From: Nesterenkonia massiliensis
Lineage (GTDB): Bacteria; Actinomycetota; Actinomycetes; Actinomycetales; Micrococcaceae
NCBI RefSeq assembly: GCF_000455245.1
Contig: NZ_HG005166.1
Location: 114,636 to 178,635, forward strand
DNA: 64,000 bases
Direction of reading: 5' to 3'
The position numbers were made by a program, and so were the translations under genes. The notes below the pieces were generated by a model. The model did no database searches and was not told the DNA's origin. It saw only the letters and a list, made by a program, of their open reading frames with translations. Each line of letters starts with the position of its first letter. Within the stretch, counting starts at the first letter, position 1. Shown here piece after piece: positions 1 through 59,192 of this stretch.

Positions 1-59
1 CGGTCGTTGTTGTCGTGTGGAAATCAGTTGGCTCTGAGTTTCACGGTCACCAGGACGAG

Positions 60-8067: not shown

Positions 8068-9926
8068 GTATGAAGTCCACCGTGAAGCAGATGCTTAAGT
8101 CTCCCTTCGCAGTCGTCAGCTTGCTGATCCTGAGCTGGTTCGTCGTCGCGCTGCTCCTGTGGCCAAATATCAACCTACTGTTCGAGACGTTCTTCCCCGC
8201 CGGCGAATTCTCGGGCCGGGCCGTTGAGCGCATCCTGTCCTCGGAAAGAGCGATGCGTTCTCTATGGAACTCACTACTGCTGGCATTGGCCCTGGCCGTG
8301 TCCACCAACGTAGTCGGAGTTTTCATCGTGCTGGTGACTAAGTACTTCCACATCCGCGGTAGCCGGATCCTGTGGCTGGGGTACGCGACCACGCTCGTCT
8401 ACGGCGGCATCGTAGTCGCCGCGGCCTACCGCTTCATCTATGGCAGCGACGGTATTGTCACCGAAGCCCTGCTGCAGATTCTTCCTGGAATGGACCCCGA
8501 TTGGTTCCAAGGCTTCTTCGCTGTGCTGGTCGTCATGACTTTTGCGACGACGACCAATCACCTGCTGTTTCTCTCGTCGGCGATCGCCAAAGTAGACCAG
8601 CAGACTATTGAAGCAGCAAAGAACATGGGCGCAGGAGACTGGACCATTCTTCGCAGGGTGGTACTCCCCACGGTCAAGCCGATGATCTTCGCGATCACCA
8701 TCCTCAGCTTCCTCACCGGGCTGGGGGCTCTGTCCGCCCCGATTGTCTTAGGCGGCCGAGACTTCCAAACGATCGCCCCGATGATCCTCTCCTTCGCGAG
8801 TTCACCACACTCACGGGATCTGGCTGCCCTCATGGCTCTGGTGCTAGGGATGGCGACAATCGCGGTGCTGGTATTCCTCACCCGTATGGAAGCAGGCGGC
8901 ACCTACTTCTCCCTGTCCAAAGTGGCTACTCCACTGGATAAACAGAGAATCTCCAATCCAGTGGCGAACCTGGCCGTTCATGCAGGGGCCTATGCTCTCT
9001 TCCTCATCTACATCGCGCCCCCGGTCCTCATAGTTCTCTACTCGTTCGTGGACTCCTACAGCATCGAGACCAATGCTTTCGCAGTGGCCAATATGTCCTG
9101 GGAGAACTATCAGCGGGTCCTCACCCAGCCCAATGCGCTGCGTCCCTTCCTGGTCTCCATCACTTACAGCGCCCTGGCCTCGGCCATCGTCGGCGTCGGG
9201 CTGTTAGTCGTCGTGCGGATTCTGGTGAAGTACCGCAACGGAGTCTCGACAACATTTGAATACCTGCTGCATGTGCCGTGGTTGCTCCCCGGCGCGATGA
9301 TCGCCCTGGGGCTTATCCTCAGTTTCGACACATCGAGTCCGTTGCTGTTCAATAACGCCCTCAGCGGCACCCCGGTCATTCTGCTGGTCGCCTATGTGAT
9401 CATCAAGATCCCCTTCACTCTGCGTCTGATGAAGGCTGCCTTCGCCTCCATCAACCACTCTTTGGAGGAGGCTGCAGTGCTGATGGGCGCAGGGAACTGG
9501 ACGATCTTCCGGAGAATCCTGCTGCCTGCGGTGCTGCCAGTGGCAGCTGCTGTTTTCGGATTGAACTTCATCTCTCTGGTGGATGACTACGACACCACCG
9601 TTTTCCTGGCGCATCCGCTCTATCAGCCGCTGGGTCCGGTCATTCACCAAAACACCCAATCCACGACAGACCTCAACGCTCGCGCCAACACCTTCGTCTA
9701 CACAGTGCTGATCATGGTGATCTCCACGGCGGTCATGTGGTTGGTCTATGGAAGGACGACTACGCAACGGCGTCGTCGTCCACGGGGGCAGCGAGAAGCT
9801 CCTTCAGGAAGTGAACACGTTCCATCGGTGGCGCGCTTGGTCCATCAGCCGGTCCCCGGCGCGCAAGCCACCGGGTATGCACCTGCGGCCGCAGCTGCAC
9901 CGGCAGGAGCGGAGCCGCGATCGTGA
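8064..9926 (+). CDS. ABC transporter permease, fused double-domain
   Basis: 620 residues with about 12 membrane helices in two halves. Each half carries an EAA loop that docks the ATPase: EAAKNMGAGDWTILRRVVLP in the first and EAAVLMGAGNWTIFRRILLP in the second. It is thus a tandem fusion of two permease domains, as in FbpB/AfuB-type importers. The C-terminal ~55 residues are basic then Ala/Pro-rich and probably cytoplasmic. The GTG start overlaps the ATPase stop (GTGA at 8064), with a further ATG at 8070. It forms one importer with the two preceding genes. Confidence 0.93.
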   Translation: MSMKSTVKQMLKSPFAVVSLLILSWFVVALLLWPNINLLFETFFPAGEFSGRAVERILSSERAMRSLWNSLLLALALAVSTNVVGVFIVLVTKYFHIRGSRILWLGYATTLVYGGIVVAAAYRFIYGSDGIVTEALLQILPGMDPDWFQGFFAVLVVMTFATTTNHLLFLSSAIAKVDQQTIEAAKNMGAGDWTILRRVVLPTVKPMIFAITILSFLTGLGALSAPIVLGGRDFQTIAPMILSFASSPHSRDLAALMALVLGMATIAVLVFLTRMEAGGTYFSLSKVATPLDKQRISNPVANLAVHAGAYALFLIYIAPPVLIVLYSFVDSYSIETNAFAVANMSWENYQRVLTQPNALRPFLVSITYSALASAIVGVGLLVVVRILVKYRNGVSTTFEYLLHVPWLLPGAMIALGLILSFDTSSPLLFNNALSGTPVILLVAYVIIKIPFTLRLMKAAFASINHSLEEAAVLMGAGNWTIFRRILLPAVLPVAAAVFGLNFISLVDDYDTTVFLAHPLYQPLGPVIHQNTQSTTDLNARANTFVYTVLIMVISTAVMWLVYGRTTTQRRRRPRGQREAPSGSEHVPSVARLVHQPVPGAQATGYAPAAAAAPAGAEPRS

Positions 9927-50082: not shown

Positions 50083-50925
50083 GTGCTAACACGTGCGCGG
50101 ATCGAACTGAAGTCCAATGAGCAGCTGCGTCATATGGACGCAGCCGGCTCTATCCTCAGTGAGGGACTGGACCGTGCAGTGGCTGCTGCCCGCCCGGGAG
50201 TGACTACTGGCGAGCTTAATGATGTGTTCGCCGAGTACATCACCTCCCGGGGGGCCAAGCCGAACTTCTTGAACTACCACGGCTTCCCCGGCTATATCTG
50301 CGCCTCGGTCAATGAGGAAGTCGTTCACGGCATCCCGGGGGAGCGGGTGCTGCAGACCGGTGATGTGCTCAAGATCGACGGCGGCTGCATCATTGAGGGC
50401 TGGCACTCCGACTCTGCACGGACTGTCATCCTGGGATCTTCTGCTGAAGGTACTGCTGATCCCGAGGATGAGCGGCTCAGCGAGATCACCCGCGCTGCGC
50501 TGTGGCAGGGCATTGCTGCCTTCGCCACCGCCAAGCACATCGGGGAGATCGGCGACGCCGTCGAGGACTTCGTAAGGTCCCAGCCCGGTAAGCCGCTGGG
50601 GATCCTGGAGGATTATGTGGGTCACGGCATCGGTTCGGCGATGCATATGGCTCCCGATGTCTTCAACTACTCCACCGGGATGAAGGGCGCGAAGATCAAG
50701 CCCGGCATGGCGGTGGCGATTGAGCCGATGCTCACCCGCGGCGGTATTGAGACCAAGGTCCTTGAGGATGACTGGACCATCATCACCACTGACGGCACCC
50801 GCGCCAGCCAGTGGGAGCACTCGGTGTGCCGCCACGAAGCTGGCATCTGGGTGCTGACTGCCCCCGATGGCGGGGCTTCTGAGCTGGAGCCGCTCGGTGT
50901 GACTCCAGTGCCGATTCCTTCCTGA
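50083..50925 (+). CDS. map: Type I methionine aminopeptidase
   Basis: 280 residues. It removes N-terminal Met from new proteins. The metal ligands are visible in order: Asp in KIDGG and the nearby DSARTVI, His in GHGIGSAMH, Glu in IEPMLTRGG and Glu in SQWEHSV; a conserved His lies in NYHGFPG. Start GTG directly after the adk stop. Normally infA follows, but here a type I restriction-modification block intervenes. Confidence 0.97.
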   Translation: MLTRARIELKSNEQLRHMDAAGSILSEGLDRAVAAARPGVTTGELNDVFAEYITSRGAKPNFLNYHGFPGYICASVNEEVVHGIPGERVLQTGDVLKIDGGCIIEGWHSDSARTVILGSSAEGTADPEDERLSEITRAALWQGIAAFATAKHIGEIGDAVEDFVRSQPGKPLGILEDYVGHGIGSAMHMAPDVFNYSTGMKGAKIKPGMAVAIEPMLTRGGIETKVLEDDWTIITTDGTRASQWEHSVCRHEAGIWVLTAPDGGASELEPLGVTPVPIPS

Positions 50926-50986
50926 GTATTCGTTAGGCTTTAGTGCCTTAGCTTCACGCCCGCGTTCACTTTTGAGGGGACTTCCT

Positions 50987-52960
50987 GTGCTTAACCATGC
51001 CCAGTTCATCTGGAACGCCGCCGATATTCTGCGGGGCACCTATAAGCAGCACCAGTACGGGGACATCATTCTGCCCTTTACTGTTCTGGCTCGGCTTGAT
51101 GCCGTGCTGGCCCCTACTAAAGCTGCGGTGCTGGAGGCGGCCAAGGGGTTCGACGTCGACGCTGAGCTTCCGCTGGGCATGCTCCGTCACCGCGCAGGTC
51201 ACCACTACTCCTTCTATAACCGGGCTGGCCATACTTTGCTTACCCTGCGTGGGGACACCTACAACTTGGAGGAGAATCTCCGGTCGTATGTGAACGGTTT
51301 TTCCGGCAATGTGCGGGACATCTTCGAGCAGTACAAGTTTGAAGACACGGTGATTGATTTGGCCCGTCATGATCTGCTCTTTGATGTGCTCAAGCACTTC
51401 ACCCAGGCTGATCTGGATCTGCACCCGGACCGTGTCAGCAACGAGCAGATGGGGCATATCTTTGAGGAGCTGATTCGTCGGTTCGCGGAAGCCTCCAATG
51501 AAACCGCTGGTGAGCATTTCACACCGCGAGAAGTCATCGAGCTGATGGTGTCACTGCTGGTGACTGAGGAAGAACAGCTGAACACCCCTGGTGTGGTGCG
51601 CGATGTCTACGACCCCACCGCTGGCACCGGCGGCATGCTCTCAGTGGCGGAGGAGAAGATTCGGAAGCTGAATCCGCAGGCTGAGGTGAACCTGCTGGGC
51701 CAGGAGATCAACCCGGAGTCATACGCCATCTGCAAGGCGGACATGGTGGTGAAGGGCCAGGGGATCGACAACATTGTGTTGGGAAATACTCTCACCAGCC
51801 CCGCTTTCGAGGACCGCACCTTCCATTATGGCCTCTCGAATCCACCGTTTGGGGTGGACTGGAAGAAGCACAAACAAGTGGTGGAGACCGAGCATGAGGT
51901 ACAGGGGTATACCGGTCGCTTCGGCCCGGGACTGCCCAGGGTCTCCGACGGTTCCTTGCTGTTCCTGATGCACTTGATCACTAAGCTGCGGGATCCCGAC
52001 CCCGGGACTGGTGCAGCGGGCGGCAAGGGCGCGATTGTTCTCAACGGTTCCCCGCTGTTCACCGGCGGTGCCGGCTCGGGTGAGTCGAATATCCGGAAGT
52101 GGGTGCTGGAGAACGACTACCTGGAAGCCATCATCGGGCTGCCCACGGACATGTTCTACAACACCGGGATCTCCACATACATCTGGGTGCTGAACAAGAA
52201 GAAGCCAGAGCACCGCAAGTGGAAGGTGCAACTGATCGACGCCACCGCGATGTTCACAAAAATGCGCAAGTCGGTGGGCTCCAAGCGCAAGATGCTGGGC
52301 GCGGAGGACATCAAACGCATCACGGAGCTGTATGAGGGCTTCGATGAGTCCAAGCATTCGAAGATCTTCCGCAACCAGGACTTCTTCTACCGGACCATCA
52401 CCGTAGAGCGCGCGCTGCGGTTGAATTACGCCTACGCCGCGGATCGCGTAGAGCGGGCCTTGGACTCCAAAGCGGTGACGAAGCTGGAGGAGGATATTCG
52501 CGCGGGCCTTGGAGAGGTGCTGCAGGCAGCCGAGGCGGAGGCTTCGAATACGTGGACCAGCCGGGATGAGTTCTTGAAGGATCTCAAGACCCGGTTGGAT
52601 GCCGGGGGAGCGAAACTAACTCCTGCTCAGCTGAAGGCAGTCGTCTCAGAACTCTCGGAGCATGACGACGACGGCGAGCTGATCACCAAGCGCAACGGCT
52701 CACCTGAGCCGAACCCCGCGTTGCGTGACACAGAGAATGTGCCCTGGGATGAGGACATTCACGAGTATCTCGAACGCGAGGTCAAGCCATTCGTGCCGGA
52801 TGCTTGGATTGATGAGTCCAAAACCAAGATCGGCGTGGAGATTCCGTTCACCCGGCATTTCTACGAGTACGTTCCGCCGCGCCCCTTGGAAGAGATCGAT
52901 CGCGACCTCGAGGAAGTCCTCGGCCGTATCCGCCAACGCCTAGAGCAGGTGAAAGCGTGA
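50987..52960 (+). CDS. hsdM: Type I restriction-modification system, methyltransferase subunit
   Basis: 657 residues from the GTG at 50987, which has GAGGGGA six bases upstream; a TTG at 50972 is less likely. The N-terminal helical domain (FIWNAADILRGTYKQHQYGD) recognises HsdS/DNA. The N6-adenine methyltransferase core has the AdoMet motif DPTAGTGGML (Asp209) and catalytic NPPF (Asn285). A C-terminal coiled region of about 170 residues contacts HsdS. It modifies host DNA at the sites set by HsdS. The stop overlaps the hsdS GTG. It begins 61 bp after map. Confidence 0.96.
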   Translation: MLNHAQFIWNAADILRGTYKQHQYGDIILPFTVLARLDAVLAPTKAAVLEAAKGFDVDAELPLGMLRHRAGHHYSFYNRAGHTLLTLRGDTYNLEENLRSYVNGFSGNVRDIFEQYKFEDTVIDLARHDLLFDVLKHFTQADLDLHPDRVSNEQMGHIFEELIRRFAEASNETAGEHFTPREVIELMVSLLVTEEEQLNTPGVVRDVYDPTAGTGGMLSVAEEKIRKLNPQAEVNLLGQEINPESYAICKADMVVKGQGIDNIVLGNTLTSPAFEDRTFHYGLSNPPFGVDWKKHKQVVETEHEVQGYTGRFGPGLPRVSDGSLLFLMHLITKLRDPDPGTGAAGGKGAIVLNGSPLFTGGAGSGESNIRKWVLENDYLEAIIGLPTDMFYNTGISTYIWVLNKKKPEHRKWKVQLIDATAMFTKMRKSVGSKRKMLGAEDIKRITELYEGFDESKHSKIFRNQDFFYRTITVERALRLNYAYAADRVERALDSKAVTKLEEDIRAGLGEVLQAAEAEASNTWTSRDEFLKDLKTRLDAGGAKLTPAQLKAVVSELSEHDDDGELITKRNGSPEPNPALRDTENVPWDEDIHEYLEREVKPFVPDAWIDESKTKIGVEIPFTRHFYEYVPPRPLEEIDRDLEEVLGRIRQRLEQVKA

Positions 52961-54216
52961 GACAAGTGTACTTGCCGAGCCGGTGGCCCCAAGTGGCTCT
53001 CGGTCGGTTATTTCAGCGTCAACAGCGCACACCTGGTAAGGGCACAGGCGTAGTTACGGCATTTAGGGATGGCCAGGTTATGCTCCGGTCCCGACGCAGA
53101 ACAGATGGATTTACTGAAGCCGTGCAAGAGATTGGCTATCAGGGAATCGAACCTGGGGATCTCGTGATTCATGCGATGGATGGATTTGCTGGTGCAATCG
53201 GTGTTGCACAGGATCGGGGCAAATCCTCGCCTGTTTATTCGGTGCTTACTCCGCGTCAGGCGCAGACCGCGTATGTGCCCTTCTACGCCTACGTCCTGAG
53301 AAACTATGCGTTATCGGGTCTCGTTCAGTCTTTCGCACAAGGAGTTCGAGAGCGTTCCACTGAGTTTCGTTGGAACACTTCCAAGACTGTGCTGGTACCC
53401 GCGCCCGGATATGGAACCCAACAGACCATCGCCGACTACCTCGACCACGAGACCGCCGAAATCGACGCCTTCATCGCGGATCTAGAAGCGCTGATTAAAT
53501 TGGAAGAAGAGCGTCGTATCGCAACTATCGACGCTCACCTCGATGCAGGTGAGCCGGTAATGGTGCCGATGAAGCATCTCGGAACTTTAAGGTCAGGTCT
53601 CACTCTAGGCACCAAGTACACGGAACCGGTCGAAGAGTTTCCCTACCTCCGTGTGGCGAATGTACAGACCAACTACGTGGACCTCACAGACGTGGCCACA
53701 GTCCGTGTGCCGCAGCGGGTCGCGGATACAAACCGCCTGCAACCAGGAGACATTCTGATGACTGAGGGTGGTGACCGCGACAAATTGGGCCGGGGAGCCA
53801 TCTGGGACGGAAGTGTTCCAAACATGCTCCACCAGAATCACATCTTCTCGTTTCGCTGCGCTGAAGCTCTCTCCCCGGAGTACCTGGTGCTTGTTCTGGA
53901 ATCCACATGGGCGCGTGACTACTTCGATCTCACCGCACGTCAGTCCACTAATTTGGCCTCCACAAACTCGACTACGGTGAGGTCTTTCCTCGTCCCATAT
54001 CGGGACCGAGGAGCTCAGGAAAGGCTCGTCAAAGCACTTCACGCTGCCCTAGCTAAGGTGGCCGATGCTGTGCACGATTCCCGGAAGGCGATTGCGCTCG
54101 CCAAGGAACGCCGCGCTGCACTGATCTCGGCTGCCGTCACCGGGCAGATCGATGTCACCGCTAAGCATAAGCCAGCCGCCGAACAGCTCGAAGAGGACAT
54201 CGCTCAGCTCGCCTGA
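52957..54216 (+). CDS. hsdS: Type I restriction-modification system, specificity subunit
   Basis: 419 residues with two target-recognition domains (about 10-150 and 195-345), each followed by a long helix. Conserved helix elements repeat as QQTIADYLDHETAEIDAFIA after the first and LIKLEEERR or ALAKERRAALISAAVTGQID at the spacer and end. The first domain is divergent and shows no close relative by eye; the second contains LRVANVQTNYVDL and GDILMTEGGDRDKLGRGAIW, typical of HsdS. It sets the bipartite DNA sequence for HsdM and HsdR. GTG overlaps the hsdM stop (GTGA). The gap to convergent fic is 36 bp. Confidence 0.93.
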   Translation: MRQVYLPSRWPQVALGRLFQRQQRTPGKGTGVVTAFRDGQVMLRSRRRTDGFTEAVQEIGYQGIEPGDLVIHAMDGFAGAIGVAQDRGKSSPVYSVLTPRQAQTAYVPFYAYVLRNYALSGLVQSFAQGVRERSTEFRWNTSKTVLVPAPGYGTQQTIADYLDHETAEIDAFIADLEALIKLEEERRIATIDAHLDAGEPVMVPMKHLGTLRSGLTLGTKYTEPVEEFPYLRVANVQTNYVDLTDVATVRVPQRVADTNRLQPGDILMTEGGDRDKLGRGAIWDGSVPNMLHQNHIFSFRCAEALSPEYLVLVLESTWARDYFDLTARQSTNLASTNSTTVRSFLVPYRDRGAQERLVKALHAALAKVADAVHDSRKAIALAKERRAALISAAVTGQIDVTAKHKPAAEQLEEDIAQLA

Positions 54217-54252
54217 GAGCGCGCCGAGCAGCCGCGCCTCCTCCCGTCCACG

Positions 54253-55464
54253 CTATTTGCGGTGCAGCTGCTGGGCGTAGGCATCGAGAGTCTGGAGAAC
54301 TCCCGGGTGCTGATACACCCGGTGCCGCCGCTTCCCTGAACGTTCTTCCAACACACCGCGTTCGGTCAGCTGGGCCAGCGCGCGCTGGGCCGTCATTTCA
54401 TTGAGTCCAAGCTGCGTGACCAAGAACCGGGAGTCAATCACCGGATGCGAGATCAAGTGCGGGATCACTGACCACGCGCTGGCATTGCGGCGAAGTCCTG
54501 CGAGCTTCTGCTCCGAGTCCTCCAATACGGTCACCAGATCATCCACCAACACCATTCCGGAGTTTGACGCGAATAAAGACGCTTCAACGAAGCGGCTGAG
54601 AATCGGCTCCGCATCCCCCTGGCGGAAAGCAGTCAGCGCATCGAAATATCCCTCGGTGTCCCGAAGCAGACCGGCCGACACAGGCGCCGTCGTCTCCGTC
54701 ATCACCCCGTGCGTCTGGAGCATGGCATGCACCAGGGCGCGGCCGGTTCGACCATTGCCGTCAACGAACGGGTGAATAGTCTCGAACTGGGCATGGGCTA
54801 CCGCCGCCTGAAACAGCGGGGGGAGGTCCACCCGATGCATAAACGTCATCAAATCCTGCATGGCCGGCCGAATCAGCTCCGGCTGGGGCGCCATATGGCT
54901 GGCACCAATAGGGGTTACTCGCGAAGTCCCCACCCACACCAGGGAATCCCGATACCGGCCGGCGTACCTCTCGCCATGACGCTGCGCCGAAATCAGCACC
55001 CGCTGCATGGTCAGAATGGCATCCTCGTCCAGGCGGTCAGCGAGCTGCAAAGCCGCTTCCATGGCACGCAGGTTGCCGACCACCACGGAGGCATTATCAC
55101 TAGAGCTCTGACCAAGCTCAGCTAGGGCAAGCTGGCGTGCGCCTACCGTGAGGTTCTCGATCTGAGAGGAGGATGAGGATTCCGTGCGCAGCAGGATGGA
55201 ACTCATGGGTCCCAGGGCGTTGTTCTCGCGGCCCAGCCGCCCCAACGCGTAGTTGTCGAAGCGGGCGAGTGCTGTGGTCGCTTCGTCCAGATCTGTCACC
55301 AGTTCAGGGGGAAGAGCCGGCCGGTAGTCCTTCAACTCGGCGGGCACAGCAGAACGGTACGGCCCAGTGGCGGCAGCCAGGCGTCGTCGTCCTGTGCTGC
55401 CGTCAGGTTCCGCTGTCCAGAAGTGGTCTTCTTTGCCCATGGCAGGGACAGGAAGTGTTGCCAT
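54253..55464 (-). CDS. Fic-family protein with C-terminal winged helix
   Basis: 403 residues. The Fic core has the catalytic HPFVDGNGRTGR (His231). An N-terminal inhibitory motif of the S/T-x3-E-G/N type is present as SSQIEN (Ser99 to Asn104), so it is a class II-like Fic whose AMP-transferase activity should be self-restrained. The C-terminal ~100 residues form a winged-helix domain (LGLNEMTAQRALAQLTERGVL), suggesting DNA binding and autoregulation. It lies inverted between hsdS and hsdR, divergent from hsdR, across a 12-bp perfect inverted repeat. Fic genes are known companions of type I systems; their role there is unclear. Confidence 0.93.
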   Translation of the reverse strand: MATLPVPAMGKEDHFWTAEPDGSTGRRRLAAATGPYRSAVPAELKDYRPALPPELVTDLDEATTALARFDNYALGRLGRENNALGPMSSILLRTESSSSSQIENLTVGARQLALAELGQSSSDNASVVVGNLRAMEAALQLADRLDEDAILTMQRVLISAQRHGERYAGRYRDSLVWVGTSRVTPIGASHMAPQPELIRPAMQDLMTFMHRVDLPPLFQAAVAHAQFETIHPFVDGNGRTGRALVHAMLQTHGVMTETTAPVSAGLLRDTEGYFDALTAFRQGDAEPILSRFVEASLFASNSGMVLVDDLVTVLEDSEQKLAGLRRNASAWSVIPHLISHPVIDSRFLVTQLGLNEMTAQRALAQLTERGVLEERSGKRRHRVYQHPGVLQTLDAYAQQLHRK

Positions 55465-55473
55465 AGATCCACC

Positions 55474-55504
55474 TTACTAACACTTTGAGCGTAAGTGTTA
55501 GTAA
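55474..55504. promoter_or_regulatory. Perfect 12-bp inverted repeat between fic and hsdR
   Basis: TTACTAACACTT and AAGTGTTAGTAA are exact reverse complements separated by TGAGCGT. The site starts ten bases upstream of the fic start codon, in the only divergent promoter region of the restriction-modification block. This is the form of an operator; the winged helix of the Fic protein is the obvious candidate to bind it. Confidence 0.75.
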
Positions 55505-55599
55505 CGATCTGTCGAGACTCACAGTTCTTCACACGCGAGCTGACCTGCACAAAGTAGGGTGAGGGAGAGCACTCGGCAGAGCAAAAGAGGGGACCTCGG

Positions 55600-58500
55600 A
55601 TGAGTCAGCTTCACCACGAGGATAGATTTCAGCGCCAGATTGCGGACTACCTGGCCGACCACGGCTGGCTGGCGTCACCGAACTCCTCCGGCTATGACAA
55701 AGAACGTGCCCTCTGGCCCGAAGACCTCCTCGGTTGGTTAGAAGACTCTGATCCGGAGAACTACCGCAGGATTGTCCCTGCTGAACCGGGTGCGGCCCAG
55801 CAGAAGGGGCAGCGCACAATCCTAGACAGGGTGGCCAAGCAGCTCGCTGTCACCGAAGAGCAGGGCGGTGGCACTCTCAACGTGTTGCGCAACGGGGTGG
55901 ATGTCATCGGGGCTCGCCGATTCCAGCTCATGCAGAACCCGGTCTCCACGGATCTAAACCCTGAACTAACTGCGCGGTACCGGAAGAACCGGCTGAGGGT
56001 TGTCCGTGAGGTCATCTACTCCACGCGGCACAGCAACCGCATTGACCTTGTCCTCTTCCTCAACGGCATCCCGGTGGCCACCATTGAAACCAAGACCACC
56101 TTTAGCCAGTCGTTAGAAAAGGTTAAAGACCAGTACCGCAAGGACCGGCTGCCACAGGGCGAACCGCTGCTGACCCCGTTCCGTGGAGCCCTGGTGCACT
56201 TCGGGCTCACCGACGAGAACATCGTGATGACCACCGCACTCAGGGGAAGCGAAACCTTCTTCCTTCCCTTTGACCGCGGCCATCACAACGGCGCAGGCAA
56301 CCCGCCGGTGGAGGGCAAGCATCGCACAAGCTACTTCTGGGAGGAGATCCTGGATCCTGATACTTGGCTCAACATCCTGGCCAAGTTCATCTACGTCAAC
56401 CGAGAGAAACGCGCCGACCCGCTCACCGGCAAAATCATCACGCGCAGTCAGATCCGATTCCCCCGGTACCACCAGTGGCGGGCAGTCAGCAGGCTCGTCC
56501 ACACTGCCGCAGAAGAGGGTCCCGGTCATAAATACCTCATCCAGCACTCTGCTGGTTCCGGAAAAACTGACTCTATCGCTTGGACCGCCCATAGGCTGGC
56601 AGATCTTCAGGCGGCAGATGGTCAGAAAGTCTTCGACTCAGTCATTGTCATCTCCGACCGGCAAGTTCTGGACCGCCAGCTGCAGGAAGCTGTGAATCAG
56701 CTGACTAACACTTCAGGGAAGTTCCAACCCATCACCTCGGGCAGCGAGGGGTCTAAAACCAAACAACTCATGGCGGCCTTCGCTGCACGAGTGCCCATTA
56801 TTGGGCTTACCCTGCAGACCTTCCCCCATGCATTGAAGAAGATGCGCGAAGAAGGCGGGATTCTGGATGGCCGACGCTTCGCCGTCATCGCAGACGAGGC
56901 TCACACCTCGCAGACCGGTGCTGCGGCCAATGCACTCAAAGAGCTGCTCTACCTGCAACAGCAGGCAACTGATGTTGCTGATATGGATGAAGCCGAACTG
57001 AACCAGGAAGCGCTGGCAGCAATGGCCGCCAGGGTGGATGAAGACAAGCGAATCAGTTACTTCGCCTTCACGGCCACACCTAAGGGAAAGACCCTGGAGA
57101 TATTCGGCAGACGCAGGGACCCGCAGAGCCCGCCAGAGCCCTTTGACCTGTATTCCATGAAGCAGGCCATTGAAGAAGGCTTCATCCTCGATGTGCTGAA
57201 GAACTACACCAGTTATGAAACCGCGGCCCGGATCGCTCGTCGCACTGAGACCGGTGGTCATCAAGAGCTGGACATCCGGCGTTCCAGTAGGGCGATCATT
57301 GGCAAAGTGGAGCTGCACCCGACCAACGTCTCCTCCAAAGTCCACGAGATCATCGAGCACTTCACCCATGTGGTCCAGCCCGAACTCGGCGGCCGTGCTA
57401 AAGCCATCGTGGTCACCTCATCCCGTGCTGCCGCAGTGCGCTATCACCGGCATTTTCAGCGTGCCGTGGCAGAGCGTGGGTTGGCTTTGAAATCGTTGGT
57501 GGCGTTTTCGGGAGAAGTTGAAGATCCCGATGTCCCAAGTATTGGCGGAGCACAGAAGCACACGGTGACTGAGGAAACTGAGAACCCAGACCTCAAGGGC
57601 CGGGACTTAGCTCAGGTCTTTGGGCAGCAGGACCAGCATGTCCTCATCGTCGCGAATAAATACCAGACTGGCTTTGATGAGCCGCTGCTGGTGGCCATGT
57701 ATGTGGATAAGAAACTCTCGGGCATCTCCGCAGTCCAGACCCTCTCACGGCTCAACCGCCAGGCCCAGGGGAAAGACAACACCTACATCCTGGACTTCAT
57801 CCCGGATAACCCCCAGCGCGTGGAAGCCGCTTTCAGGGAGTACTACGAGGATGCAGTCCTGGTGAAGGAATCCGATCCCGAGCTGGTCCTGGAGCTGAGG
57901 ATGAAGCTGGAGAATAAGCGGATCTTCCTGCCCTCTGAAGTAGACCACTTCTGGCGCATCTGGCGCGGCGCCAAGAGTGAGAAGAACGCCCACGGACAGA
58001 TCAATGGCGTCATCGACATCGCGGTTGAACGATTCGCCGTGTATTGGCAGCAAGCAGTGAACATCTACGTACAGCAGGACGATGCTGCTCAACTAGAGGA
58101 ACTAAAGGAGTTCCGTAAGACCCTGGGTGCCTATTCCAAGGCCTACGACTTCTTCAGCCAAATCCTCAATTTCGGAGATGAATACTACGAGAAGCTCTCC
58201 GTGTACGCGGAGAAGCTTCAGCGCAAGCTCGTGAGCTTCACCGAGGAGGAGACAGACCCCGACCGGATCAACCTCGACGACGTTGTTCTCACACACTTCA
58301 AGCTAGAGAAACTCCGGGAAGAGTCCTTGACCGCTGGGGGTGGGGGAGAAGGTCTGCGCGGAATGACCGAGGCGGGCATCTCCCGTGGTGGCGATGCCCA
58401 GCGCGGCACTTGGGAAGAGGTCATCGAGACAGTCAACGAGTACTTAGGCCACCTGGACGTGGATGACGAGCACAAGCTCAGCTACACCGAATCACTGCTG

Positions 58501-58731
58501 GCTCGTGCTGTGAAGGACAAGAAGCTTCAAACACAGGCCAGTAATAACCCTGAGGCGGACTTCAAGCATTCACCCACACTGAATGCCGTGGTCGAGGATG
58601 CTATCTGGGGTGATGATCAGGACCATGCGGCATTGGCGGAGGCTGCTCGCAAGAATCCTGGCGGTATGGTGAAGCTGCTGTTGGATATGGGGCTCTACGA
58701 ACGGCTGCTGGAAGAGCACCGCGCGGCCTGA
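55600..58731 (+). CDS. hsdR: Type I restriction-modification system, endonuclease/translocase subunit
   Basis: 1043 residues. The N-terminal PD-(D/E)XK nuclease has Asp149 (NRIDLVLF) and Glu163-x-Lys165 (ATIETKTT). The SF2 translocase follows, with Walker A AGSGKT (about 318-323), the DEAH box DEAHTS (Asp432), FAFTATPKGKT and later VANKYQTGFDEP and QTLSRLNRQAQGKD. A helical C-terminal domain (about 800-1043) binds the methylase. All key residues are present, so it looks functional. It cuts unmodified DNA after translocation. ATG with GAGGGGAC upstream. It is separated from hsdMS by the inverted fic gene, so it has its own promoter. Confidence 0.96.
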   Translation: MSQLHHEDRFQRQIADYLADHGWLASPNSSGYDKERALWPEDLLGWLEDSDPENYRRIVPAEPGAAQQKGQRTILDRVAKQLAVTEEQGGGTLNVLRNGVDVIGARRFQLMQNPVSTDLNPELTARYRKNRLRVVREVIYSTRHSNRIDLVLFLNGIPVATIETKTTFSQSLEKVKDQYRKDRLPQGEPLLTPFRGALVHFGLTDENIVMTTALRGSETFFLPFDRGHHNGAGNPPVEGKHRTSYFWEEILDPDTWLNILAKFIYVNREKRADPLTGKIITRSQIRFPRYHQWRAVSRLVHTAAEEGPGHKYLIQHSAGSGKTDSIAWTAHRLADLQAADGQKVFDSVIVISDRQVLDRQLQEAVNQLTNTSGKFQPITSGSEGSKTKQLMAAFAARVPIIGLTLQTFPHALKKMREEGGILDGRRFAVIADEAHTSQTGAAANALKELLYLQQQATDVADMDEAELNQEALAAMAARVDEDKRISYFAFTATPKGKTLEIFGRRRDPQSPPEPFDLYSMKQAIEEGFILDVLKNYTSYETAARIARRTETGGHQELDIRRSSRAIIGKVELHPTNVSSKVHEIIEHFTHVVQPELGGRAKAIVVTSSRAAAVRYHRHFQRAVAERGLALKSLVAFSGEVEDPDVPSIGGAQKHTVTEETENPDLKGRDLAQVFGQQDQHVLIVANKYQTGFDEPLLVAMYVDKKLSGISAVQTLSRLNRQAQGKDNTYILDFIPDNPQRVEAAFREYYEDAVLVKESDPELVLELRMKLENKRIFLPSEVDHFWRIWRGAKSEKNAHGQINGVIDIAVERFAVYWQQAVNIYVQQDDAAQLEELKEFRKTLGAYSKAYDFFSQILNFGDEYYEKLSVYAEKLQRKLVSFTEEETDPDRINLDDVVLTHFKLEKLREESLTAGGGGEGLRGMTEAGISRGGDAQRGTWEEVIETVNEYLGHLDVDDEHKLSYTESLLARAVKDKKLQTQASNNPEADFKHSPTLNAVVEDAIWGDDQDHAALAEAARKNPGGMVKLLLDMGLYERLLEEHRAA

Positions 58732-58970
58732 TCAGGTGGAGTCGGCCCGCCGTCGACGTTGGGTTTTGGTGGAACTAACACCGACTGGCGCGGCGGGCTT
58801 GACTCAGGTACGATTGTCTGTTGGTTGTCTCTGCCCAACTATGCCTGTTGGCAGATGTGCGGGCAGGGACTCTAAAGCAGAAATCCAGATCCTCCGCTCA
58901 GCCCTACTTTATGCCGATATTCCGGTGTGAACGGGGCGGTTCAGGGGATCGTGAACGGTGTGTGGAGCAT
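58732..58970 (+). promoter_or_regulatory. infA upstream region
   Basis: A 239-bp gap without a supported gene. GCCCGCC (58745-58751) and GGCGGGC (58792-58798) could form a long hairpin ending the hsdR transcript. Just after it, TTGACT (58799-58804) and GGTACGAT (58807-58814) look like promoter elements but are too close to form one pair; GGTACGAT may be an extended -10. The infA frame is open upstream to 58821, but the predicted extension does not resemble IF-1. Confidence 0.4.
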
Positions 58971-59192
58971 ATGGGTAAAAAAGAAGGCGTCATCGAGGTC
59001 GAGGGCTCAGTTGTTGAAGCCCTGCCGAATGCAATGTTCCGTGTGAAGCTGGAGAACGATCACGTTGTCCTGGCAACCATCTCGGGCAAGATGCGCCAGC
59101 ACTACATCCGCATCCTCCCCGAGGACCGGGTCGTGGTGGAGATGAGCCCTTATGACCTCAACCGCGGCCGTATCGTCTACCGCTACAAGTAA
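58971..59192 (+). CDS. infA: Translation initiation factor IF-1
   Basis: 73 residues from [12 protein letters not shown]; canonical S1/OB-fold IF-1 with [33 protein letters not shown] and [15 protein letters not shown]. It occupies the ribosomal A site during initiation. TGGAGC is the ribosome binding site. An upstream in-frame start would add 50 unrelated residues and is rejected. rpmJ follows 13 bp on. Confidence 0.97.

Follow-up and report, generated by a model that had tools for sequence, protein, structure and literature searches.

A palindrome between fic and hsdR is probably the core of the operator of a class II fic gene and the middle of an array of alternating half-sites

The window, by which we mean the whole 64-kb stretch of Nesterenkonia massiliensis DNA that was analysed, carries an hsdM-hsdS-fic-hsdR block (50083-59192) that lies between map and infA inside a run of ribosomal-protein genes, the names being assigned by eye. 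Within the block fic runs against the hsd genes, its stop codon being separated from that of hsdS by 36 bp. The genes, together with the part of fic that is predicted to encode a winged helix, are these:

50972..52960, plus strand: hsdM, by profile matches
52957..54216, plus strand: hsdS, by a profile match
54253..55464, minus strand: fic, a class II, SoFic-like Fic protein of 403 aa with HPFVDGNGRTGR and the inhibitory motif SSQIEN
54310..54480, minus strand: winged-helix codons of fic (residues 329-385 in the AlphaFold model, recognition helix 356-368)
55600..58731, plus strand: hsdR, a type I restriction subunit and a neighbour that is probably outside the Fic circuit

The fic product is presumed from its motifs to be an AMP-transferase. 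The Fic motif HxFx(D/E)GNGRxxR is present as HPFVDGNGRTGR at residues 231-242, and an alignment of 26 sequences, that of the window included, shows 11 of the 12 positions to be invariant or conserved to 90% or more; the inhibitory motif (S/T)xxxE(G/N), N-terminal to the Fic core, was read by eye as SSQIEN at residues 99-104, and S99, S100 and E103 are invariant in the same 26 Fic sequences. Pfam Fic matches at 2.5e-20, with Fic_N just below its cut-off, and the PADLOC SoFic profile matches residues 43-393 at E=1.5e-70; against the NCBIfam SoFic equivalog NF046030 the protein scores 73.8 bits, the cut-off being 550. A C-terminal winged helix had been proposed for this protein, and the AlphaFold model (mean pLDDT 87.4) agrees, with helices at 329-336, 345-352 and 356-368, strands at 373-376 and 382-385, and a last helix. 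The fold matches found with Foldseek point the same way, the nearest being 7cb8 (TM 0.87) and then SoFic 3zcn (TM 0.71). Residues 348-377 also match the HutC repressor model weakly (E=0.005, far under the cut-off).

The original prediction placed a perfect inverted repeat in the divergent region between fic and hsdR, and both the repeat and its location are as described: TTACTAACACTT-TGAGCGT-AAGTGTTAGTAA occupies 31 bp, its 12-bp arms are both perfect, and it lies 9 bp from the fic ATG and 95 bp from the hsdR ATG. The repeat and the sites around it, with offsets counted from the arm that is farther from fic, are as follows:

55474..55504, no strand: central palindrome, TTACTAACACTT-N7-AAGTGTTAGTAA
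55493..55504, minus (fic) strand: half-site A, offset 0, TTACTAACACTT
55474..55485, plus (opposite) strand: half-site B, offset +19, TTACTAACACTT, overlapping the presumed fic -10 box
55453..55464, minus (fic) strand: half-site C, offset +40, ATGGCAACACTT, 8/12, overlapping fic codons 1-4
55515..55526, plus (opposite) strand: half-site D, offset -22, AGACTCACAGTT, 8/12, on the hsdR side
55471..55476, minus strand: presumed fic -10 box TAAGGT, 6 nt before the ATG at -12..-7, from which the mRNA would be leaderless

With up to three mismatches allowed the palindrome is found once in the window and in none of 100 shuffles, and, searched for as a pattern with 10-bp arms, it is single at that tolerance in the 2.67 Mb of the genome. 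When the sequence upstream of fic was shuffled 30 times, no shuffle held an equally good repeat. A lone half-site with one mismatch (TGACTAACACTT) lies at 56702-56713 within the hsdR coding sequence and is probably there by chance. A comparison of the DNA between fic and hsdR with 10 fic loci and 8 hsdR loci gave a single match, which covered 22 nt at E=0.18 and was taken as chance, and a search of genome contigs for related loci gave one distant locus and nothing more.

Palindromes of the same kind recur before the fic genes of relatives. Fic relatives at E<=1e-30 were found in 103 of 295 genomes of the family, and DNA of up to 19 kb was fetched around 95 fic places and 5 places with the palindrome only; some fic places were left out, one of which (in genome G040) entered later from the hsdR side as locus L191. 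A search that took in other actinobacterial families gave a Fic match in 80 of 394 genomes, the window's own genome counted among them. The upstream regions compared number 92, the window and 91 relatives, three loci being broken and without a usable start (L059, L060, L061) and one having too little upstream sequence (L108). A palindrome with at least 9 of 10 outer pairs is present in 60 of the 92 (10/10 in 33 and 9/10 in 27), against 28 of 460 control segments (Fisher p=4e-35, for loci that are not phylogenetically independent). Because most of the control segments are coding sequence, with a composition unlike that of upstream regions, shuffles of the upstream regions were added, and 6 of 276 of these reach the same score. 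The remaining 32 regions attain only 7 or 8 of 10 pairs, and in some loci (L051, L076, L101, L115) the best repeat is GC-rich and placed elsewhere. The genes upstream of fic vary, with 46 divergent and 46 co-oriented neighbours from 82 families among the 92 loci, as counted with a crude frame caller some of whose frames resemble antisense shadows. On this comparison of sequences the palindrome is a feature of fic rather than of hsdR, and it is very probably a Fic operator.

The window's own version of the palindrome, with up to three mismatches, occurs at 13 places in 12 of the 295 family genomes, 8 of them directly before a Fic frame and 5 without an intact one. Two of the latter (L126 near 8913 and L127 near 9136) are Fic-type operators in front of an apparent fic remnant, recognised by a match of 12 residues with E about 0.1. 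Near 8922 in locus L129 a palindrome of the ACTATCACTT type, followed after about 40 bp by another half-site, precedes a frame that by eye resembles an acyltransferase; no fic match in that locus is better than E=0.06, and it may represent a second target or a fic remnant. In L125, near 9193, a version with three mismatches stands directly before a frame that by eye resembles a regulator of the TetR type.

Our scans of the related loci point to a larger structure, an array with the palindrome at its centre in which half-sites alternate at a spacing of about two helical turns. This array, with its flanking half-sites C and D, was absent from the original prediction and is the new element here. 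When each locus was scanned with its own half-site, the fic strand gave, beyond the palindrome itself, one sharp peak at +41 from the far arm (mean 6.4/12, background 3.2, z about 17), and on the opposite strand offsets -21 to -23 were raised (z 7 to 9.5). An extra half-site of at least 8/12 is found at +39..42 on the same strand in 38 of 75 loci and at -20..-23 on the opposite strand in 35, whereas 54 background windows gave a mean of 1.3 and a maximum of 5 loci per 75; these counts leave out 11 loci with 7/10 pairs and, removed by hand, the GC-rich or unlikely repeats of L051, L076, L085, L101, L104 and L115. Across loci the half-sites thus fall at -20..-23, 0, +18/19 and +39..42; each points the opposite way to its neighbours, and from one start to the next there are 18-19 or about 20-23 bp. 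The window's array spans 55453-55526, with C and D in the same register as the flanking half-sites of relatives; the chance of a copy of at least 8/12 within a range of four positions is about 0.003 over the window for each. The test was also run as a joint array score on all 92 loci, with no choice made by hand. The window scores 28, a value that 33 of the 92 fic loci equal or exceed, as do 1 of 368 shuffles and 0 of 368 control segments; for a score of at least 25 the figures are 58 of 92, 45 of 368 and 10 of 368.

The array is not uniform over the family. The joint score is below 26 in 46 of the 92 loci, and several clades have weak flanking half-sites or none (the upstream median is 5 in the L072 group, for example). 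The offsets are also blurred by some loci, L052 and L058 among them, in which it was the outer, divergent pair that was taken for the palindrome. Copy C overlaps the first codons of fic in the window; its likeness to the arms is not a by-product of shared protein sequence, because the arms vary by clade and C follows them, TGAGCAACGATC standing beside TACGCAACG arms and TGCCAATGTTTG beside TACCAATGTTTA arms. Among plasmids, 28 records were found and 15 named loci were used. The array is clear in three of these 15 loci (L216, L227 and L228, no control segment scoring as high), marginal in two (L225 and L229) and indistinguishable from controls in ten, nine of which are distant (31-38% identical) and one of which, Microbacterium locus L215, is 50% identical; the three clear loci belong to the same family as the loci in which the array was found. 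The fic relative on the Microbacterium plasmid (L215, 2498-3702), which is without a clear array, is annotated as two overlapping frames.

The position of the palindrome next to a restriction gene had suggested that Fic is a control protein for the type I system, with one operator repressing both fic and hsdR and so delaying restriction until the DNA has been modified. The idea behind this model comes from type II restriction-modification systems, whose C proteins are small, regulate themselves, hold back the endonuclease and are as a rule linked to their restriction-modification genes, whereas the Fic protein considered here is unlinked to such genes in the loci examined. With the window's own hsd proteins as queries, and hence for the type I family of the window only, 94 of the 95 fetched fic loci gave no hsdM, hsdS or hsdR match at E<=1e-8, and Fic-type operators stand at fic genes that have no hsd genes beside them. 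The one exception among the 95 with hsdMSR (L131) is the sole other divergent fic-hsd locus seen, and there fic faces hsdM. In L191 fic is again placed differently, downstream of hsdR.

Seen from the side of hsdR the picture is the same. Relatives of HsdR at E<=1e-60 are present in 72 of the 295 family genomes, and fic and hsdR occur together in 30 against 25.1 expected (p=0.11), a non-significant excess; the genome with the closest Fic relative (G269) has no hsdR relative at E<=1e-60. In the 41 other hsdR loci (40 fetched, and L131), 11 Fic queries at E<=1e-5 placed fic between hsdS and hsdR in none. Instead, hsdR lies within about 60 bp of an hsdS match in 27 of the 41, and 0.4-5.4 kb lie between them in 11; the remaining loci are L204, with a split hsdR, and L188 and L189, without hsdM or hsdS. 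In eight close relatives the start of hsdR follows directly, by eye, on an apparent hsdS coding sequence. In another genome of the same genus (G165; loci L060 and L175) fic has internal stop codons and hsdR lies about 690 kb away on the same contig. The 800 bp before hsdM in the window contain no half-site with up to three mismatches. We set the control-protein model aside as improbable, with hsdMSR at 1 of 95 fic loci and fic between hsdS and hsdR in 0 of 41. Two features of the locus do speak for it: the array extends to 55526, leaving 73 bp to the hsdR ATG, and hsdR lacks the tight coupling to hsdS that is typical of 27 of the 41 other loci, so that it needs either a promoter in this region or read-through from upstream. 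Of the proposed shared operator the fic part is supported and the hsdR part is not; the repeat covers the presumed core promoter of fic and lies 95 bp from the hsdR start. Because the promoter scan found no hsdR promoter and copy D reaches 55526, control of hsdR by the operator is possible but unsupported, and hsdR appears from these comparisons to be an incidental neighbour of the fic operator.

The array lies over what we take to be the promoter of fic. TAnnnT about 10-12 nt before the start codon marks leaderless genes, which make up more than a fifth of the genes in Actinobacteria (PMC3160421), and the same -10 motif is described in PMC3898074. In 34 of the 75 loci, that of the window included, the start codon lies 25-26 nt past the centre of the palindrome, and in 27 of these 34, again including the window, TAnnnT stands exactly at -12..-7, compared with a mean of 0.6 at other shifts, though 18 of them carry a second TAnnnT 10 nt further up. 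The inverted repeat of the window accordingly sits at the gene's own promoter as presumed from TAAGGT. For the remaining 41 loci the distance from centre to start codon runs from 14 to about 160 nt, with some uncertainty over the starts. These were selected by a rule that probably took the wrong codon in a number of loci, among them L072, L089, L090, L091 and L094, where a start 27 nt further on would restore the usual distance. A promoter scan of 55380-55700 gave no site on either strand; TAGGGT at 55556-55561, noted by eye only, is a possible -10 box of hsdR. On this reading the near arm overlaps the presumed -10 box, copy C lies at the start of the transcript, and the repeat itself would not be transcribed.

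This placement bears directly on the possibility that the repeat acts as RNA, folding into a hairpin in a 5' leader that serves as an attenuator, a lock on the ribosome site or a terminator. A perfect 12-bp stem with a 7-nt loop adjoining the start codon would suit such a role. The presumed -10 box sits in the near arm, so that transcription beginning there would not include the repeat, nor does a hairpin call for flanking half-sites that switch strand at fixed offsets, as these do. The centre-to-start distance, moreover, ranges from 14 to about 160 nt outside the 25-26-nt group (some of these starts being uncertain), and the only terminator-like site found, at 55410-55426, is away from the repeat. 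The box in the near arm, inferred as its start is, and the alternating half-sites led us to reject the hairpin, which we regard as very improbable.

The arms of the operator differ between clades (TACTAACACTT, TACTTACAGTT, TACTATCACTT, TACGCAACG, TACCAAAGGCT, TTTTCTCAATA and TTTTCCCA are examples), and these differences track the protein. The closest Fic relative found, that of G269, is 68% identical and its operator differs at 2 of 20 arm positions. Over the set, operator distance correlates with winged-helix distance at a Mantel r=0.66 and with catalytic-domain distance at r=0.60, and the correlation with the winged helix given catalytic-domain distance is r=0.36 (partial Mantel, p=0.001). 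The loci are related, falling into 20 winged-helix clusters at 60% identity, and the p-values of the palindrome counts and Mantel tests overstate their independence. That an unlinked transcription factor for defence genes, rather than Fic, binds the operator is highly unlikely, since the operator sequence follows the Fic winged helix beyond catalytic-domain distance and the palindrome is single in its own genome, while the 5 of 13 family matches without an intact Fic frame, which would favour such a factor, include two that look like fic remnants.

These observations suggest that the palindrome is the core of fic's own operator, that a dimeric Fic protein represses its own gene, and that hsdR is a chance neighbour, a reading of the sequence comparisons to which we assign a probability of roughly 0.82. 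The two winged helices of a Fic dimer would each contact one arm, at a distance of about two helical turns, and further Fic subunits would occupy the flanking half-sites C and D, so that the complex would cover -62 to +12 relative to fic. RNA polymerase would thereby be excluded from the -10 box within the near arm, and the level of Fic would be kept low. We infer the identity of the binding protein, its dimeric state, repression by binding and the extra subunits on C and D from the arrangement of the sites. The proximity of hsdR to the fic promoter would be explained if a fic cassette with its operator had been inserted, in reversed orientation, between the hsdS and hsdR genes of an ordinary hsdMSR operon, which seems the simplest history of the locus.

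It is conceivable, although we think it rather unlikely, that the array has a further role. In such a scheme at least four alternating half-sites, two turns apart, would be bound by an oligomeric Fic repressor whose operator and winged helix co-evolve clade by clade, and occupancy of the DNA may hold the enzyme in a dimeric, inactive or deAMPylating state. If this were true, release of Fic from its own operator would both raise the amount of the protein and switch the enzyme on.

Our findings correct, through comparative data, the view of this Fic protein as a control protein of type I restriction. An operator that recurs in a legible register, together with a winged helix that varies with it, provides dozens of protein-DNA pairs for testing, on which self-repression, a specificity code of the winged helix and control of the enzyme by operator DNA can each be addressed. 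Class II proteins are stated to make up 80% of Fic proteins, with almost nothing known about what restrains them (PMC9755527). In the accessible part of the open-access literature self-repression is described for CccR, but no such half-site array for any Fic protein.

Among proteins of known structure the Fic protein of Mycobacterium marinum (7cb8) is the closest, with a match of E=3.5e-46 over residues 44-402, and SoFic of Shewanella (3eqx/3zcn) has the same fold over most of its length, with 21% identity in the structural alignment to 3zcn. In the Sofic anti-phage system, EcSofic is held in check by AS1, a small antitoxin whose gene lies downstream (PMC12249575); with no more than 36 bp between the stop codons of fic and hsdS, there is no room here for a gene like AS1 downstream of fic. 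None of the terms 'palindrom', 'HTH', 'winged' and 'DNA-binding' appears in that paper's main text. CbFic2 of Coxiella burnetii is, like the protein described here, a class II Fic with a winged helix, and its DNA binding is tied both to dimerisation and to switching between AMPylation and deAMPylation (PMC10628234). The work used random DNA and no operator, and a role on histones is proposed for CbFic2. It bound the random DNA with high affinity, so specificity for a sequence is not to be taken as given for every Fic protein of this type.

The closest parallel to the proposed self-repression is CccR of Yersinia pseudotuberculosis, a T6SS effector and class II Fic AMP-transferase with a C-terminal HTH, which binds inverted repeats near the -35/-10 region of its own promoter and represses itself in a manner that requires dimerisation (PMC9755527). 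The two systems have in common a class II Fic protein, a C-terminal winged helix (in our case a predicted one) and an inverted repeat at the gene's own promoter, which here is presumed. The CccR operator, AGATAATCAT-N26-ATGATAATCT, is 46 bp long with its repeats 26 bp apart (PMC9755527), whereas the arms here are 7-8 bp apart and are embedded in an alternating array. The recognition helices of CccR are reported to be 70 angstroms apart (PMC9755527), or about 20 bp of DNA, although its repeats are more widely spaced than that, and the half-sites described here, at 18-23 bp from one another, fit that distance loosely.
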